Source: Thermogutta terrifontis (GTDB taxonomy: Bacteria; Planctomycetota; Planctomycetia; Pirellulales; Thermoguttaceae). From it: a DNA stretch of 64,000 bases. Both the position numbers and the translations under genes were made by a program. The stretch spans positions 1 through 64,000 of the forward strand of contig NZ_CP018477.1 of assembly GCF_002277955.1 (NCBI RefSeq). Reading direction: 5' to 3'. The notes under the pieces are model-generated. The model searched no databases. It was not told the origin of the DNA and saw only the letters and a list, made by a program, of their open reading frames with translations. Numbering within the stretch: position 1 is the stretch's first letter; every line of letters starts with the position of its first letter. This document shows positions 4,908-63,558 of this stretch, in pieces.

Positions 4908-5341
4908 GGGGCAGTTCATGAATTGTCTCCACATGGAGCATCCGAGAGACCTCTTTCTCAGGCTTCTTTTCATTGCCAGTCCGTTTTTTCGGAGGGACGT
5001 GCTTGTCACGTCCGCTGTGCAACGTTCGATGATCAATTCCCTTTTCCCGGGCACGACAGGCGTGCCCCTCCGGTCCTTTTTCTCGGAGGGACCTGCTCGT
5101 CAGGTCCGTTTCTTCGGAGGGACCTGCTTGTCGGGTCCGCCGTTCAACGCTGGATCGTCCATTCCGTTTTACCGGGGACTGAAGTCCCACGCCAAAAGCG
5201 GGGCTAAAGCCCCGCACTCCATGGAGTGCGGCGATTTATCGCCGCTTTCTGGTGAAGGCTTTAGCCTTCGCCACCTTGCCGTTTACGGTGCTTTGCCGTG
5301 ACCACGAAAGCGCACTCGTAGGGGCAATTCACGAATTGCCC
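4908..5341. repeat. Palindromic repeat array 1
   Basis: The gyrB-TetR interval holds no gene but a string of distinct inverted repeats. In order they are a worn GGCAATTCATGAATTGCC type (4909-4930), GGACGTG-CTTGT-CACGTCC (4995-5013), GGGCACG-ACAGG-CGTGCCC (5049-5067), GGACCTG-CTCGT-CAGGTCC (5089-5107), a mixed-arm copy (5120-5138), GGGACTGAAGTCCC (5175-5188), GCGGGGCTAAAGCCCCGC (5198-5215), ACTCCATGGAGT (5216-5227), GCGGCGATTTATCGCCGC (5228-5245), GAAGGCTTTAGCCTTC (5254-5269) and an AATTCACGAATT type (5321-5340). Linkers containing AACGTTCGAT recur between hairpins. ORFs across it are open only because the modules lack stops. Confidence 0.93.
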
Positions 5342-13583: not shown

Positions 13584-14297
13584 GACGTGCTCGTTGTGCC
13601 CGGTGAGGGGAATTGGATCATCGAACGTTGAACGGGGGACTGAACGTGTTGTGTGGGGCAATTCATGAATTGCCCCTACCGATTAACCAGCGGAATGTGG
13701 ACGCGACATATGGAGTGCGGTGCTTAAGCACCGCTTTTTGCGCGGGACTTTAGTCCCCGCTGAAAGGAAATCGATGATCGAACGTTGAACGGCGGACCTG
13801 ACAAGCAGGTCCCTCCGAAAAGCGGACGTGACAAGCACGTCCCTCCGGAGAAGGTCGGAGGGGCACGCTCGTTGTGCCCGGTGAGGGGAATTGGATCATC
13901 GAACGTTGAACGGGGGACTGAACGTGTTGTGGGGGGCAATTCATGAATTGCCCCTACCGATTAACCAGCGGAATGTGGACGCGACATATGGAGTGCGGTG
14001 CTTTAGCACCGCTTTTTGCGCGGGACTTTAGTCCCCGCTGAAAGGAAATCGATGATCGAACGTTGAACGGCGGACCTGACAAGCGGGTCCCTCCGGAAAA
14101 GGTCGGAGGGGCACGCTCGTCGTGCCCGGTCAGGGGAGATGGGGCATCAATCGGTGTTCATCGGACCCGACAAGCGGGTCCCTCCGAAAGAAACGGACCT
14201 GACAAGCAGGTCCCTCCGAGGGGAAGAGGACGTGACAAGCACGTCCCTCCGGAGGCGCGCATGTCGTCGGGTAGGGGCAATTCATGAATTGCCCCTA
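13584..14297. repeat. Palindromic repeat array 2 (inverted orientation)
   Basis: The same modules as array 1 occur here, reading on the opposite strand. They include GGCAATTCATGAATTGCC types (three copies), GCGGTGCTTAAGCACCGC and its variant GCGGTGCTTTAGCACCGC, CGGGACTTTAGTCCCCG, and hairpins of the CTTGT-core family with arms GGACGTG, GGACCTG, GGACCCG and GGGCACG. The linker GATCATCGAACGTTGAAC recurs. The array separates the ubiD/small-protein pair from the Tat-exported protein gene. No transposase or integrase frame is present. Confidence 0.93.
13591..14095. repeat. Tandem duplication inside array 2 (period about 278 bp)
   Basis: The segment beginning TCGTTGTGCCCGGTGAGGGG at 13591 recurs at 13869. 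It continues through the AATTCATGAATT palindrome, a unique-looking linker (GATTAACCAGCGGAATGTGG) and the paired GGTGCTT-AGCACC and GGGACTTTAGTCCC hairpins. The copies differ at a few positions, notably TTAA versus TTTA in one hairpin core. The first copy carries an extra GGACGTG-type hairpin. This points to recent local duplication. Confidence 0.9.
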
Positions 14298-19518: not shown

Positions 19519-19975
19519 GGAGGGGCACGCTTGCCGTGCCCGGGCAAAGGGAATTGATCATCGAACGTTGCACAGCGGACGTGACAAGCACGTCCCTCCG
19601 AAAAAGGTCGGAGGGGCACGCTCGTCGTGCCCGAAAAAAAGGAACACGTCATGAATGGAGGCCGTGGAACGCGTCTGTCCATTGCATGGATTGGGGGATC
19701 GGGTTCCACGCCGACCGGTCAGCTCCGTTCCGCCAGGGCCAACGGCAAAATTGGTGAAGGCTAAAGCCTTCACCAGAAAGCGGCGATAAATCGCCGCACT
19801 CCATATGGAGTGCGGGGCTTTAGCCCCGCTTTTGGCGCGGGACTTCAGTCCCCGGTGAAACGGGATGGGTGATCCAACGCTGCGCGGCGGACGTGACAAG
19901 CACGTCCCTCCGAAGAAACGGACCCGACAAGCGGGTCCCTCCGAAAAAGGATTCGGAGGGCCACGCCCGTTGCGC
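19519..19975. repeat. Palindromic repeat array 3 (inverted orientation)
   Basis: The interval between the divergent ThuA and DegT genes contains GGGCACG-core hairpins, two GGACGTG-type hairpins and one GGACCCG type. It also has the five-palindrome cassette in reverse: GAAGGCTAAAGCCTTC, GCGGCGATAAATCGCCGC, ACTCCATATGGAGT, GCGGGGCTTTAGCCCCGC and GGGACTTCAGTCCC. The central palindrome here has grown from CCATGG to CCATATGG. The rest of 19211-20115 shows no gene. Confidence 0.92.
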
Positions 19976-22610: not shown

Positions 22611-24101
22611 TTACAGCGTTTGCAGCAGGCGGGCTGGTGACGTGCCGATGGCTTTTCTCGTGGTCAGCACTGTCATGACGATCCAGCACGCAGCTACGGA
22701 ACAGGCGATCATCGAGACCATCGCAGGACTAAACTGAAAGGCCAGGCTCGCGTAGCGCGACGCTTCAGGAATAAGGGCCGGTGCCACTAGGTACTTTCCC
22801 AACAGGAAACTTGTAATAACGGCGACAATTGTTCCCAGCAACCAAATAATTAGCGACTCCGTAATAAACATCCACCTGAGAAATCTTTCTGACATCCCGA
22901 TGGCTTTGAGTAAACCGATTTGAGCCATCTTTGCCTCGGTGCGCAGGGTTTGCACCGCTGTAAGGACGAGCATTAATCCTGTAAAGATGAGTATAAGAAA
23001 CGCCGTAACAAATCCTGCCTGAATCAAATTAGATCGGTTGAGCTGTTCTAATCTGTTGATTGTGTCATTTGTATCGCGGACATAGAAACCGTTCTGTTCC
23101 AGCTTTTGTTTCAGTGAGCGGAGATGGCTGACGTCCTTCACATAGATAGCCCCCATGTTTTCTGCCGGAAGCGCATGGGGATTGACTTGTTGATTGATGG
23201 GACGGGCGTCCTTCCAGAATTCCTCGCTCGCCGGAGAAAATCCGGCAGTGGTCATCAACGAGTTGATTTTTTGCAGGAACGTGGTCCAGTCTCGAATGTG
23301 GTAACCATTGTCGCGCCAGGTTTCAATCCTCCAGGCGCTGCCGGCTTTTTGCGGGACGAACATGCGATAGGTATCAAAAGCGGTCCGAACCAGCTTCGGC
23401 AACTGGGCGGGCGGAGGCCAGTCTGCGGGAATCGGCCCGGTGACCAGGATAGCGCAACGCACATCGGCGTGTTCCTGGAGAAAGTCCGCATACCAATTTT
23501 TATCCACGACGAATTTGTGGCCCCAGGGAAGCTCATCGTAAATCGCGGCAACTGGTACGGACACAAGTTCACGGTTTGGAGCCTCAATAAACAGTTCCCG
23601 CGGTTCGGGTTCGCTGGGACGCCAGCCGAGTTGTTCAAGTAGTTTGCGGCTGACGTACAGACCTGAGGTGGGTTTGTCAGTTTTCTGGGTCGTCCGGTTT
23701 CTGAGAACGGGGTCCTCTGGATCGCGCGTTCGGCCTGTCACTGACAGGCTTCCCGCCAAAGGATCTGATAATAAGCCGAAGAATATGTCAATTTCATGGA
23801 AAAAATACCAGCCAGATAGTCCCGGCTCATTAGTTAATAGTCGACTCAGTTCTTTTTTACGTTCCGGGGTAAATACCTGTTCTTTAAGTCCGGGAAGCCC
23901 GACCCAGAGACAGAGCGTCAACGGGTCTTCGAGAACGATTTGCCGCTGCACGGCATAGAGTCCAAAGAGAATTCCGTAAACTTCTAATGGAAGAAAGACC
24001 ATGAGTGCGACAGCGAAAACGCAAACGAACGTGATGAGCCGCACCCTCGGCCGAACCATGCCACGCCAAACCATCCAAAAAAGAATCCTCAGGACGTTCA
24101 T
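22611..24101 (-). CDS. FtsX/MacB-type ABC transporter permease
   Basis: This 496-aa inner-membrane protein has one N-terminal TM (RLITFVCVFAVALMVFLPLEV), a periplasmic domain of about 290 residues, and three C-terminal TMs starting at IQAGFVTAFLILIFTGLMLVL. A cytoplasmic coupling segment, AKMAQIGLLKAIGMSERF, is typical of the FtsX/MacB/LolC fold (type VII ABC). The ATG at 24101 is chosen over GTG 24110; neither has a strong ribosome site. It is the last gene of the long operon, nine to eighteen bases behind its ATPase. The large periplasmic domain suggests mechanical coupling to exported partners rather than bulk transport. That is inference. Confidence 0.82.
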   Translation of the reverse strand: MNVLRILFWMVWRGMVRPRVRLITFVCVFAVALMVFLPLEVYGILFGLYAVQRQIVLEDPLTLCLWVGLPGLKEQVFTPERKKELSRLLTNEPGLSGWYFFHEIDIFFGLLSDPLAGSLSVTGRTRDPEDPVLRNRTTQKTDKPTSGLYVSRKLLEQLGWRPSEPEPRELFIEAPNRELVSVPVAAIYDELPWGHKFVVDKNWYADFLQEHADVRCAILVTGPIPADWPPPAQLPKLVRTAFDTYRMFVPQKAGSAWRIETWRDNGYHIRDWTTFLQKINSLMTTAGFSPASEEFWKDARPINQQVNPHALPAENMGAIYVKDVSHLRSLKQKLEQNGFYVRDTNDTINRLEQLNRSNLIQAGFVTAFLILIFTGLMLVLTAVQTLRTEAKMAQIGLLKAIGMSERFLRWMFITESLIIWLLGTIVAVITSFLLGKYLVAPALIPEASRYASLAFQFSPAMVSMIACSVAACWIVMTVLTTRKAIGTSPARLLQTL

Positions 24102-43990: not shown

Positions 43991-44678
43991 GGGACCCGCT
44001 CGTCGGGTCCGTTTTTCTATGATGGATGATCCGCTTCCTTTCACCGGGCACGACAAGCGTGCCCCTCCGAATCATTTTTCGGAGGGACCTGCTCGTCAGG
44101 TCCGCTTCTGCGATTGGAGGGACGTGCTTGTCACGTCCGTGTATTGGGACTGGGGAGGGACGTCTTTCTCTACACGGAACAAGCACTCTCAGCGTTCACC
44201 GGTAGGGGCAATTCATGAATTGGCCCTTCCTGGATCTGAATGTGCTGTACTTGCAATTCATGAATTGCCCCTATCGACATGCCGTTTTGCCCTGATGAAC
44301 GTATTTTGGGCGCGATTCATGAATCGCCCCTACCAACGTCGGAGGGACCCGCTCGTCGGGTCCGTTTATCAACGTTCGATCATGAATTCCGTTTCAGCGG
44401 GGACTGAAGTCCCGCGCGGAAAGCGGGGCTAAAGCCCCGCACTCCATGGAGTGCGGCGATTTATCGCCGCTTTTTTGTGAAGGCTTTAGCCTTCACAATC
44501 TCACCATTGATCCGGATGAAAACGGAGTACCGGTCGGGGTGGAACCCGTTCCTCCAATCCATGCAATGGAAGCACGCCTTACGCGGCCCGCTATTCCGAC
44601 GTCTGATATACCATGCCGCTTCACCGGGCACGACAAGCGTGCCCCTCCATGTTTCGAAGGGACCTGCTTGTCAGGTCC
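43991..44678. repeat. Palindromic repeat array 4
   Basis: Modules include GGACCCG-CTCGT-CGGGTCC (43992-44010), GGGCACG-ACAAG-CGTGCCC (44046-44064), a GGACCTG type near 44091, GGACGTG-CTTGT-CACGTCC (44120-44138) and three AATTCATGAATT palindromes between 44200 and 44335. They also include another GGACCCG type, the full five-palindrome cassette (about 44399-44495), a second GGGCACG hairpin near 44630, and GGACCTG-CTTGT-CAGGTCC ending at 44678. All four arm variants of the CTTGT-core family occur within 700 bases. Confidence 0.93.
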
Positions 44679-44826: not shown

Positions 44827-44899
<73 letters not shown>

Positions 44900-50096: not shown

Positions 50097-50991
50097 GGAC
50101 GTCCTTTTCACGTCCGCCTGCCGGAGGGACCCGCCCGTCGGGTCTGATGAACACCGATTGATGACCCATCCCTCCTCGCCGGGCACGACAAGCGTGCCCC
50201 TCCGACGTTTCGGAGGGACGTGCTTGTCACGTCCGCCTCTCGGAGGGACCTTTTCCGGAGGGACCCGCTCGTCGGGTCCGCTTTTCGACGTTGGATCATC
50301 CATTGCCTTTCACCGCGGACTGAAGTCCCACGTGGAAAGCGGGGCTAAAGCCCCGCACTCCATGGAGTGCGGCGATTTATCATGGAGTGCGGCGATTTAT
50401 CGCCGCTTTCTGGTGAAGGCTTTAGCCTTCACAATCTCACCGTTGGTCGAGATATCAACTGAGTAGCGGTCGGGGCGGAACCCGAGCCTCCAATCCATCC
50501 AATGGAAGGACAAGTTCCAGGGCGTCCATTCATGAGTTGTCAGGTCCATCTTCCGGAGGGACCCGCTTGTCGGGTCCGCTCGCGCACGTTCGATCATCCA
50601 TTCGCTTTCGCCGGGCACGACAAGCGTGCCCCTCCGACCTTTCGGAGGGACGTGCTTGTCACGTCCGCCTCTCGGAGGGACCTTTTCCGGAGGGCCCCGC
50701 TCGTTTGGTCCGCTCGCGCACGTTCGATCATCCATTCGCTTTCACCGGGCACGACAAGCGTGCCCCTCCGACCTTTCGGAGGGACGTGCTTGTCACGTCC
50801 GCCTGCCGGAGGGACCTTTTCCGGAGGGACCCGCTCGTCGGGTCCGCTTTTCGACGTTGGATCATCCATTGCCTTTCACCGGGGACTGAAGTCCCGCGCC
50901 GAAAGCGGGGCTAAAGCCCCGCACTCCACGTATCGACGACCCGGTTCCACGCCAGCCACGCCACCGGCACGGGCAATTCATGAATTGCTTC
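50097..50991. repeat. Palindromic repeat array 5
   Basis: Between the divergent prc and tpiA genes lies a long array. Three near-identical blocks pair a GGACGTG-CTTGT-CACGTCC hairpin with CCTCTCGGAGGGACCTTTTC-type linkers and a GGACCCG hairpin (about 50212-50281, 50642-50715 and 50776-50847). They are interleaved with GGGCACG hairpins and two copies of the GGGACTGAAGTCCC/GGGGCTAAAGCCCC cassette. One cassette is complete, the other cut after ACTCCA. An AATTCATGAATT palindrome closes the array. The region 49755-50096 before it holds nothing recognised. Confidence 0.92.
50361..50400. repeat. Exact 20-bp tandem duplication inside a hairpin cassette
   Basis: CATGGAGTGCGGCGATTTAT occurs twice back to back (50361-50380, 50381-50400). 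The unit spans half of one palindrome and half of the next. The duplication therefore interrupts both hairpins while leaving one complete copy downstream, as expected from slippage at a hairpin. Confidence 0.95.
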
Positions 50992-62150: not shown

Positions 62151-62570
62151 GGCCTTGGTTCCGGAATGGCGCGACGAGCCACCCTTACCGCTGCTCCATC
62201 CCTGGAGAGTGACCCGACAAAGCAAAAGTCTTTCACGCAACTCACACTTGTAATCCGCTGGCCGGTGTTTTACCCCGGATCCGGTGCCCTTTCGGTCCCC
62301 CACATGGGCACGCCGTCCCCGTGAGGCTCGCGCTTCCCGGCCATTTCCCCGTAATCTGCAGGGAATTGATGCCCTCCCGCCCCTTCACTAAGCAAACCAT
62401 CGGCAAACTTTCCCATTTGAGGATATCAATTTTGTCACTCTTAATTCTTTCATTTCCAGCCCCCTATGTCAATGCAGCGATTTGCTGATACATTCCCACT
62501 TTCCCTCTGGCGACGGGAATGCGCGGGTCCGCGCGGGCTCGCGGCACCATCATACGGACCGCGATTCGGT

Positions 62571-63558
62571 AGGGGCAATTCATGAATTGGCCCAACCTAC
62601 GTCGGAGGGACCCGCTTGTCGGGTCCGCCGTTCAACCTTCGATCGTCCATTCCGCCTCACCGGGCACGACCAGCGTGCCCCTCCGACCCATCTCTTCGGA
62701 GGGACGTCCTTGTCACGTCCGTTCTTCAACATTGGATCGTCCATTGCCTTTCGGCGGGGACTCAAGTCCCGCGCCGAAAGCGGGGCTAAAGCCCCGCACT
62801 CCATGGAGTGCGGCGATTCATCGCCGCTTTTCGGTGAAGGCTTTAGCCTTCACCACCTTGCCGTTGGCGATGTTTTGCCACAACCACGAAAGCGTACCCC
62901 TGGTAGGGGCAATTCATGAATTGGCCCAACCTGCGTCGGAGGGACCCGCTTGTCGGGTCCGCCGTTCACCTTTCGATCGTCCATTCCGCCTCACCGGGCA
63001 CGACCAGCGTGCCCCTCCGACCTATACCGGAGGGACCTGCTCGTCAGGTCCGCTTATCCACGTTCGATGTTCCATTTGCCTTCACCGGGCACGAGAGGCG
63101 TGCCTCTCCGACCCATCTCTTCGGAGGGACGTCCTTGTCACGTCCGTTCTTCAACATTGGATCGTCCATTGCCTTTCGGCGGGGACTCAAGTCCCGCGCC
63201 GAAAGCGGGGCTAAAGCCCCGCACTCCATGGAGTGCGGCGATTCATCGCCGCTTTTCGGTGAAGGCTTTAGTCTTCACCACCTTGCCGTTGGCGATGTTT
63301 TGCCACAACCACGAAAGCACACCCCTGGTAGGGGCAATTCATGAATTGCCCCAACCTACGTCGGAGGGACCCGCTTGTCGGGTCCGCCGTTCAACCTTCG
63401 ATCGTCCATTCCGCCTCACCGGGCACGACCAGCGTGCCCCTGCGAAGTTTACCAGACGCCGTGGACAACGTCCCTCCAATAAACGCGGCTTCCACCCGGG
63501 CCAAGGCACACGACCATACGTACCCCAATTCGGTAGGGGCAATTCACGAATTGCCCCT
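62571..63558. repeat. Palindromic repeat array 6 with segmental duplications
   Basis: A block starting GGTAGGGGCAATTCATGAAT occurs at about 62568, 62903 and 63328, that is, at spacings of about 335 and 425 bases. It runs through GGACCCG-CTTGT-CGGGTCC, the linker CAACCTTCGATCGTCCATTC and the GGGCACG-ACCAG-CGTGCCC hairpin. The first two blocks also share a downstream cassette from GGACGTC-CTTGT-CACGTCC through GAAGGCTTTAGCCTTC. The second block has an added GGACCTG/GGGCACG pair. The array separates the CBS gene from the LptF/G gene. Long frames here merely translate repeats. Confidence 0.94.

Follow-up and report, generated by a model that had tools for sequence, protein, structure and literature searches.

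What kind of element are the hairpins clustered at positions 43991-44678 of the Thermogutta terrifontis genome, and how do their arms stay complementary while differing in sequence? We analyzed this array in the window (the whole stretch of 64,000 nucleotides that begins the contig), in the complete genome (a single contig of 4,810,751 bp), and in related and more distant genomes.

The hairpins of the array and the window

The order of the hairpins along the array is c, D, b, a, c, D, b; both D copies lie on the strand opposite to the rest. The letters indicate the left arm of the stem: a, GGACGTG; b, GGACCTG; c, GGACCCG; D, GGGCACG.

43992-44010, + strand: c hairpin GGACCCG-CTCGT-CGGGTCC; tag AGAG; terminator-like, with a T tail
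44046-44064, - strand: D hairpin GGGCACG-CTTGT-CGTGCCC; GGAG tag at 44065-44068 on the - strand; folded
44081-44103, + strand: GGAG tag and b hairpin GGACCTG-CTCGT-CAGGTCC (hairpin 44085-44103)
44116-44138, + strand: GGAG tag and a hairpin GGACGTG-CTTGT-CACGTCC (hairpin 44120-44138)
44341-44363, + strand: GGAG tag and c hairpin GGACCCG-CTCGT-CGGGTCC (hairpin 44345-44363)
44626-44644, - strand: D hairpin GGGCACG-CTTGT-CGTGCCC; GGAG tag at 44645-44648 on the - strand
44660-44678, + strand: b hairpin GGACCTG-CTTGT-CAGGTCC; tag GAAG

All seven hairpins have a complete, complementary 7-bp stem. A preliminary description of this DNA had listed the same four arm variants, and all four are indeed in the array, each with complementary 7-bp arms. 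It had also called the CTTGT core invariant. We found that the core is CTTGT in four of the seven hairpins and CTCGT in the other three. A feature absent from that description is the tag GGAG, which lies directly 5' of the stem at five of the seven hairpins; AGAG and GAAG are in this position at the other two.

A search of the 64-kb window for GGACNTGCTTGTCANGTCC, allowing up to three mismatches, gave 30 matches, compared to 0.17 in shuffled sequences. As single-stranded DNA, each of the four kinds was predicted to form the expected hairpin (-7.2 to -9.0 kcal/mol, DNA parameters), and the first 166 bases of the array folded better than 200 of 200 shuffles. A search of the intergenic stretch that holds the array for promoters found none. 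Further arrays of the GGAG-CTYGT family in the window are:

4995-5138, + strand: array
13794-14246, - strand: array, with the + order b, a, D, c/b hybrid, D, c, b, a; D on the + strand and the others on the - strand
19577-19938, - strand: array, with D at 19614 on the + strand
50097-50845, + strand: array
62608-63385, + strand: array that includes a 425-bp tandem duplicated unit

Pairing, arm kinds and orientation across the genome

The pattern GGN5CTYGTN5CC had 831 matches in the whole genome compared to 143 for the reversed pattern, and with the tag included (GGAGGGN5CTYGTN5CC) there were 637 matches compared to 0 for the reversed control. We measured pairing in a sample of 1.264 Mb (the window plus 60 stretches of 20 kb) by taking every GGAG-N7-CTYGT and leaving the right arm free. 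There were 270 such elements. At least six of the seven stem positions are paired in 225 of them, and all seven are paired in 171; shuffling the right arms left 44 perfectly paired on average and 61 at most. Each of five alternative tags gave 8-20 elements, only 0-3 of which had at least six of seven pairs. When the tag was dropped from the pattern there were 185 perfect hairpins, compared to 0-2 for five alternative loops. In exact copies of each kind, the GGAG tag is 90-100% conserved at every position. As in the array, the core varies: of the tagged (GGAG) copies in the sample whose left arm matches a consensus, 176 have CTTGT and 31 have CTCGT.

The arm had been proposed to act as a subfamily label, and the counts fit this idea: 169 of the 171 perfectly paired copies in the sample carry arm a, b, c or D. 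Rare symmetric arms also exist. One is GGCCCCG, present at 181067 and 181599 (both outside the sample) and once in the sample; another is GAACGTG.

It had also been proposed that a single substitution in one arm has its counterpart in the other. This is true of the differences between the four subfamilies. It is not true of single copies. We found 54 sampled copies that are one change away from a consensus and therefore uncompensated. An additional 19 copies are two changes away, 17 of them uncompensated and 2 compensated. That is, covariation separates the subfamilies and was not seen running copy by copy; the uncompensated arm mutations that had been named as evidence against it occur inside subfamilies and not between them. 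Hybrids of two subfamily arms account for 10 of the 54 one-change copies, compared to 2.4-2.8 expected from point mutation (P = 0.0001-0.0004 if copies are independent, which tandem units are not). The hybrid arms are suggestive of exchange between copies, although they do not prove it.

We determined the orientation of neighboring copies, tagged or untagged, that were at most three changes away from a consensus. The D variant had been described as usually having the opposite strand sense, and this was so for both copies in the array and for all 136 sampled pairs in which D and an a, b or c element are within 400 bp of each other. Neighbors among a, b and c had the same orientation in 68 of 69 pairs. 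The most common spacing was 54 bp from a/b/c to D and 34-39 bp from D to a/b/c. The alternating orientation and regular spacing that characterize BIMEs are thus both present. So are the REP properties of a short palindrome in high copy number and a mostly intergenic location: 30 of 225 elements were inside ORFs of at least 200 aa, which cover 74.8% of the sample (as called by a crude ORF picker). The orientation of the genes flanking the elements was near background. CT is found soon after many a/b/c hairpins; of 58 D hairpins, 55 lack it in the 12 bases that follow.

RAYTs and the distribution of the hairpins

In genomes of Verrucomicrobiota, we found RAYTs that have hairpins of this class, with other compensated arms, on their flanks. 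The RAYT at locus L247 (genome G634) has three facing pairs of hairpins on one side; on the other are a D-like hairpin and a further pair. A RAYT that is broken off (L249, genome G752) has GGAG-CTTGT hairpins on both sides, and one near a contig end (L248, genome G711) has a GGAG-CTTGT hairpin on one side only. At four additional loci (L183, L193, L194 and L199), hairpins with a different loop, GGAG-CTCYGT, are at most 500 bp from the RAYT. In a tree of 71 RAYTs, from which four duplicate loci had been removed beforehand, these seven RAYTs fall in one clade of eight rows (98/86) that is nested in a clade of nine rows (99/96). The eighth row, L213, has a different loop. RAYTs with CTTGT and with CTCYGT hairpins are intermixed, and loop length gives no clean split of the clade. 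The loci for this tree were taken from NF047646, and the profile for extracting the RAYTs was seeded with L247 and L001. Nine of the 72 RAYT loci that we scanned first had GGAG-CTTGT/CTCYGT-type hairpins; at L186, L187 and L224, whose RAYTs are not in the clade, the distance from these hairpins to the RAYT is 0.9-1.3 kb.

Two RAYT loci were detected in T. terrifontis at E ≤ 1. The first, L175 (896562-896966), is an open frame and encodes the one protein over the cut-off of the NF047646 profile (83 bits compared to a cut-off of 80); this protein matches TnpA-REP 4er8 by sequence. The second, L179 (3676418-3676786), is a weak NF047646 match that looks split between frames. The preliminary description had called for a Y1/RAYT gene flanked by the CTTGT hairpins in this genome, and neither locus is such a gene. 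L175 is flanked by hairpins of another REP family, GGAGt-GCGGCGA-TTTA and GGAGt-GCGGGGC-TTTA, in which the loop is TTTA and an additional base separates the tag from the stem. The surrounding 20 kb (L250) contained no CTTGT-type hairpin, and in the RAYT tree L175 is distant from the CTTGT clade. The L179 locus carries a GTAGGGGC-type palindrome and has no CTTGT-type hairpin in its 3 kb; the nine loci with GGAG-CTTGT/CTCYGT-type hairpins, out of the 72 scanned, do not include it.

When we searched four Thermogutta genomes at the protein level with a RAYT of the clade, the best match was L175, at 20% identity, and a RAYT of the CTTGT clade was not detected in these four genomes. The RAYT matches of two of them (G002 and G003) are outside the clade. 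We inspected weak matches as candidates for a decayed cognate RAYT in Thermogutta and accepted none. One of these, L259, is near CTTGT hairpins and lies within a 280-aa ORF that by eye has no other RAYT parts; we attribute it to chance.

Within the genus, the hairpins are present in G001 (whose match positions are the same as in Thermogutta sp. MAG-77), were not found in G002, and have a single chance-like match in G003. Among 392 Planctomycetota genomes (including T. terrifontis, excluding G001), 15 others had one match each and 0 perfect hairpins; among 61 genomes of the same family, 7 others had one or two matches. A scan of contigs for the exact pattern, which may omit the T. terrifontis genome itself, gave 83 stretches, 75 from MAG-77 and 8 from two Verrucomicrobiota MAGs. 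Seven of these eight contain facing hairpins 47 bp apart with other arms (e.g., GGCTCTG, GGTCCTG). In the family of the two MAGs, 3 of 26 genomes had 24-31 matches. Across Verrucomicrobiota, 26 of 387 genomes had a match and 12 had at least two, with a maximum of 43, and the arms vary by genome. This patchy distribution fits horizontal spread of a RAYT together with its REP, or loss.

We also tested pairing across genomes, using an ungapped alignment of 54 distinct 23-mers in which chance-like rows were kept. In this alignment 87.0% of cells were paired, compared to 69.0% in shuffles (0 of 500 as high), and there were 78 two-sided changes over the whole structure, compared to 30.3 (0 of 500 as high). 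The covariation score was 0.447, compared to 0.144 in shuffles and 0.049-0.169 in slid controls. The number of pairs with a two-sided change (5 compared to 4.0) was within the range of the shuffles (51 of 500 as high). The four inner stem pairs, which the search patterns left free, vary on both sides. Because the patterns prescribed the outer GG/CC, the CTTGT loop and the tag, the invariance of these parts in this alignment is uninformative.

The D-like hairpins of G634 are imperfect. Those at L247 (1456-2365) and L251 (2021) are GGCGACG-CTTGT-CGGAGCC and GGCGAGG-CTTGT-CCGAGCC, with two stem mismatches, apparently tandem G-A, and the stem of the partner is perfect. The expected hairpin was not formed when the one with the GGCGACG arm was folded (-3.5 kcal/mol, z = -0.34). 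Another locus, L198, has two equal-scoring RAYT matches (G455:C330:22161-22463 and 23013-23315) that are 852 bp apart, each in a 717-aa open frame.

Origin of the hairpins and their present dynamics

The hairpins share with the REPs and BIMEs of E. coli (y, z1, z2) a tag and a hairpin, and one kind that is mixed with several others. By analogy, D would correspond to y and take its place in the BIME layout, and a/b/c would correspond to z1/z2. The alternating orientation is also shared with BIMEs as they are described in PMC2817692. Unlike the E. coli REPs, the Thermogutta family has GGAG rather than GTAG, a perfect 7-bp stem without a bulge, a CTYGT loop, and no cognate RAYT found in the genome. 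According to PMC8266576, the group-3 REPtrons of Stenotrophomonas maltophilia and Marinomonas likewise have perfect palindromes, but differ in having a GTAG tag, other loops, and the enzyme in the genome. The GGAG-CTCYGT BIMEs at the four Verrucomicrobiota RAYTs have the GGAG tag, a 7-bp stem that starts with GG, a CT..GT loop and facing pairs; they differ in their six-base loop and in the RAYT alongside, and their RAYTs are in the CTTGT clade. The GTAG and CGTC repeat families, which occur in Planctomycetes and Verrucomicrobia, are also tagged palindromes with complementary stem changes, and the CGTC repeats are without a dedicated transposase (PMC3733652). A search of the running text of that paper found neither GGAG nor CTTGT at the start of a word. 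A REP has been defined by a 5' tetranucleotide GT(A/G)G that adjoins a palindrome (PMC3686654). GGAG differs from this at the second base, and the combination of tag and palindrome as such is present; the GGAG-CTYGT family is a variant of the known REP/BIME kind with a tag outside that definition. A search of titles and the starts of abstracts in a limited collection found no report of GGAG-CTTGT repeats.

The hairpins are very probably REPs in BIME-like mosaics that belong to the REP class of one clade of RAYTs (TnpA-REPs), as an orphan family with a variant GGAG tag. The suggestion of REP-like DNA of the RAYT kind is borne out by the tag and hairpin, the alternating orientation, the intergenic location, the hundreds of copies, and the Verrucomicrobiota RAYTs. 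Mobilization by a RAYT, as had been proposed, agrees with this kind of element; the part that did not stand is a RAYT with these hairpins in the genome itself.

How might such an enzyme account for the arms? In the assays of two group-3 systems (PMC8266576), certain loop bases tolerate no change, a mismatch in the stem reduces or nearly abolishes cleavage, and replacing blocks of the stem by their complements changes the outcome modestly; the stem sequence is largely tolerant and the tag may help to select where the strand is cut. By analogy with that work, a RAYT of the CTTGT clade would read GGAG and the CTYGT loop and need only pairing in the stem, and in single-stranded DNA the GGAG tag would direct strand cleavage. 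An enzyme with these requirements should produce a fixed loop and arms that are free but compensated. A mobilizable copy would have to keep complementary arms of any sequence, and the differences between founder subfamilies would be compensated. No RAYT flanked by CTTGT hairpins was found in Thermogutta, which counts against this reading; mobilization there is an inference, in which a RAYT of the clade would once have copied these repeats and then been lost. The family extends REP/BIME elements to a GGAG-tagged class that is sporadic in Planctomycetota and Verrucomicrobiota, and names the RAYT clade that accompanies it. It is a natural experiment, one loop and tag with many compensated stems, in hundreds of copies and with no detectable cognate enzyme. 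It should make it possible to test directly whether a RAYT recognizes the loop and tag or the stem, and what becomes of REPs after the enzyme is lost.

The family would not be an orphan if L175, the genome's own RAYT, mobilized the CTTGT hairpins in trans. L175 is an open member of NF047646, its own REPs also start with GGAG, and REPs of its TTTA type share one array of the window with the CTTGT family. We nonetheless consider mobilization by L175 unlikely, given the different loop and extra base of its REPs, its distance from the clade, and the lack of CTTGT-type hairpins around it. In addition, G001 has the same CTTGT hairpins and no RAYT match at E ≤ 1 (in a 96%-complete genome of 1,120 contigs).

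Pairing could instead be kept for RNA structure, if the hairpins were transcript ends or elements for processing or stability. REPs have been hypothesized to function in transcription termination and mRNA stabilization (PMC3733652), and the hairpins are stable as well as intergenic, with one of the seven terminator-like. However, the intergenic stretch that holds the array has three terminator-like sites compared to 2.0 in shuffles. The preliminary description had offered a structured RNA as an alternative, but this is not supported: no Rfam family reached its gathering score in the array. At that threshold the only match in the window was a tRNA (44827-44899), and four weak matches in the array (E = 0.09 to 0.74) were far under their respective gathering scores. 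The near-background orientation of flanking genes, the opposite strand of D in all 136 neighboring pairs, and private arm mutations that are mostly uncompensated also argue against selection at the level of RNA, which we regard as very improbable. Compensated arms could also arise without selection by quasi-palindrome correction, in which one arm serves as the template for the other during replication. Such correction would give symmetric arms, and a few rare ones (GGCCCCG, GAACGTG) do exist. It predicts many different symmetric arms, though, and only 2 of the 171 perfectly paired copies are outside the four kinds; furthermore, 17 of the 19 two-change copies are asymmetric. It is the least probable of the explanations that we weighed.

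If the hairpins are orphaned REPs, how do they change now? We compared arrays in T. terrifontis and MAG-77. The array was present in both in 35 of 38 comparisons, with many sites counted twice (from both sides), and shared arrays differ between the species in the number and order of units. Of the remaining three, two (L109, and L038 versus L121) differ in length by several hundred bases and the third, L045, has near-equal lengths; at L038 there are hairpins immediately outside the compared stretch. Clear cases of an array in one species and not in the other were thus scarce, which counts against the reading as mobilized REPs. In a loose, position-matched comparison, 49 of 59 matched windows could be typed in both species: D was matched with D in 18 of 18, and a/b/c arms were the same in 15 and different in 16. 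A stricter comparison that required a unique best flank left 17 matches, with 8 D-D, 7 a/b/c the same and 2 different, one of which is c versus a c/b hybrid. Both comparisons used MAG loci chosen for exact a or b copies. In-place switching of arms between species was not upheld by the unique-flank test; the switches in the loose comparison may be mostly register shifts within arrays, and therefore we do not claim switching. It is plausible that the present dynamics consist of recombination within arrays and decay. On this view, array recombination or gene conversion, together with uncompensated decay, would account for present changes in the copies in place of new transposition. A more specific scenario, which we consider doubtful, is that a REP/BIME population without its transposase continues to evolve, with the D arm fixed, the three partner arms exchanged by recombination, and pairing maintained by copying intact siblings.

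The 425-bp unit at 62560-63409 of the window is duplicated in tandem; the two units are identical at 373 of 425 positions, and the first 110 bp are far less alike than the remainder. We considered this duplication as a case of switching, with c facing b, and rejected it; the two are within the poorly matching 110 bp.

Other palindrome families are interspersed with the hairpins at 43991-44678. The one at 44200-44337 has the form (G)TAGGGGC-AATTCATGAATT-GCCCCTA(C), and a palindrome with the same outer arms, GTAGGGGCACGGCATGCCGTGCCCCTA, is inside the weak RAYT locus L179. At 44395-44480 there is a third family, GGAGt-GCGGCGA-TTTA-TCGCCGC and an inverted GCGGGGC partner, which resembles the repeats that flank L175. 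The first of these palindromes has a T tail and is terminator-like.
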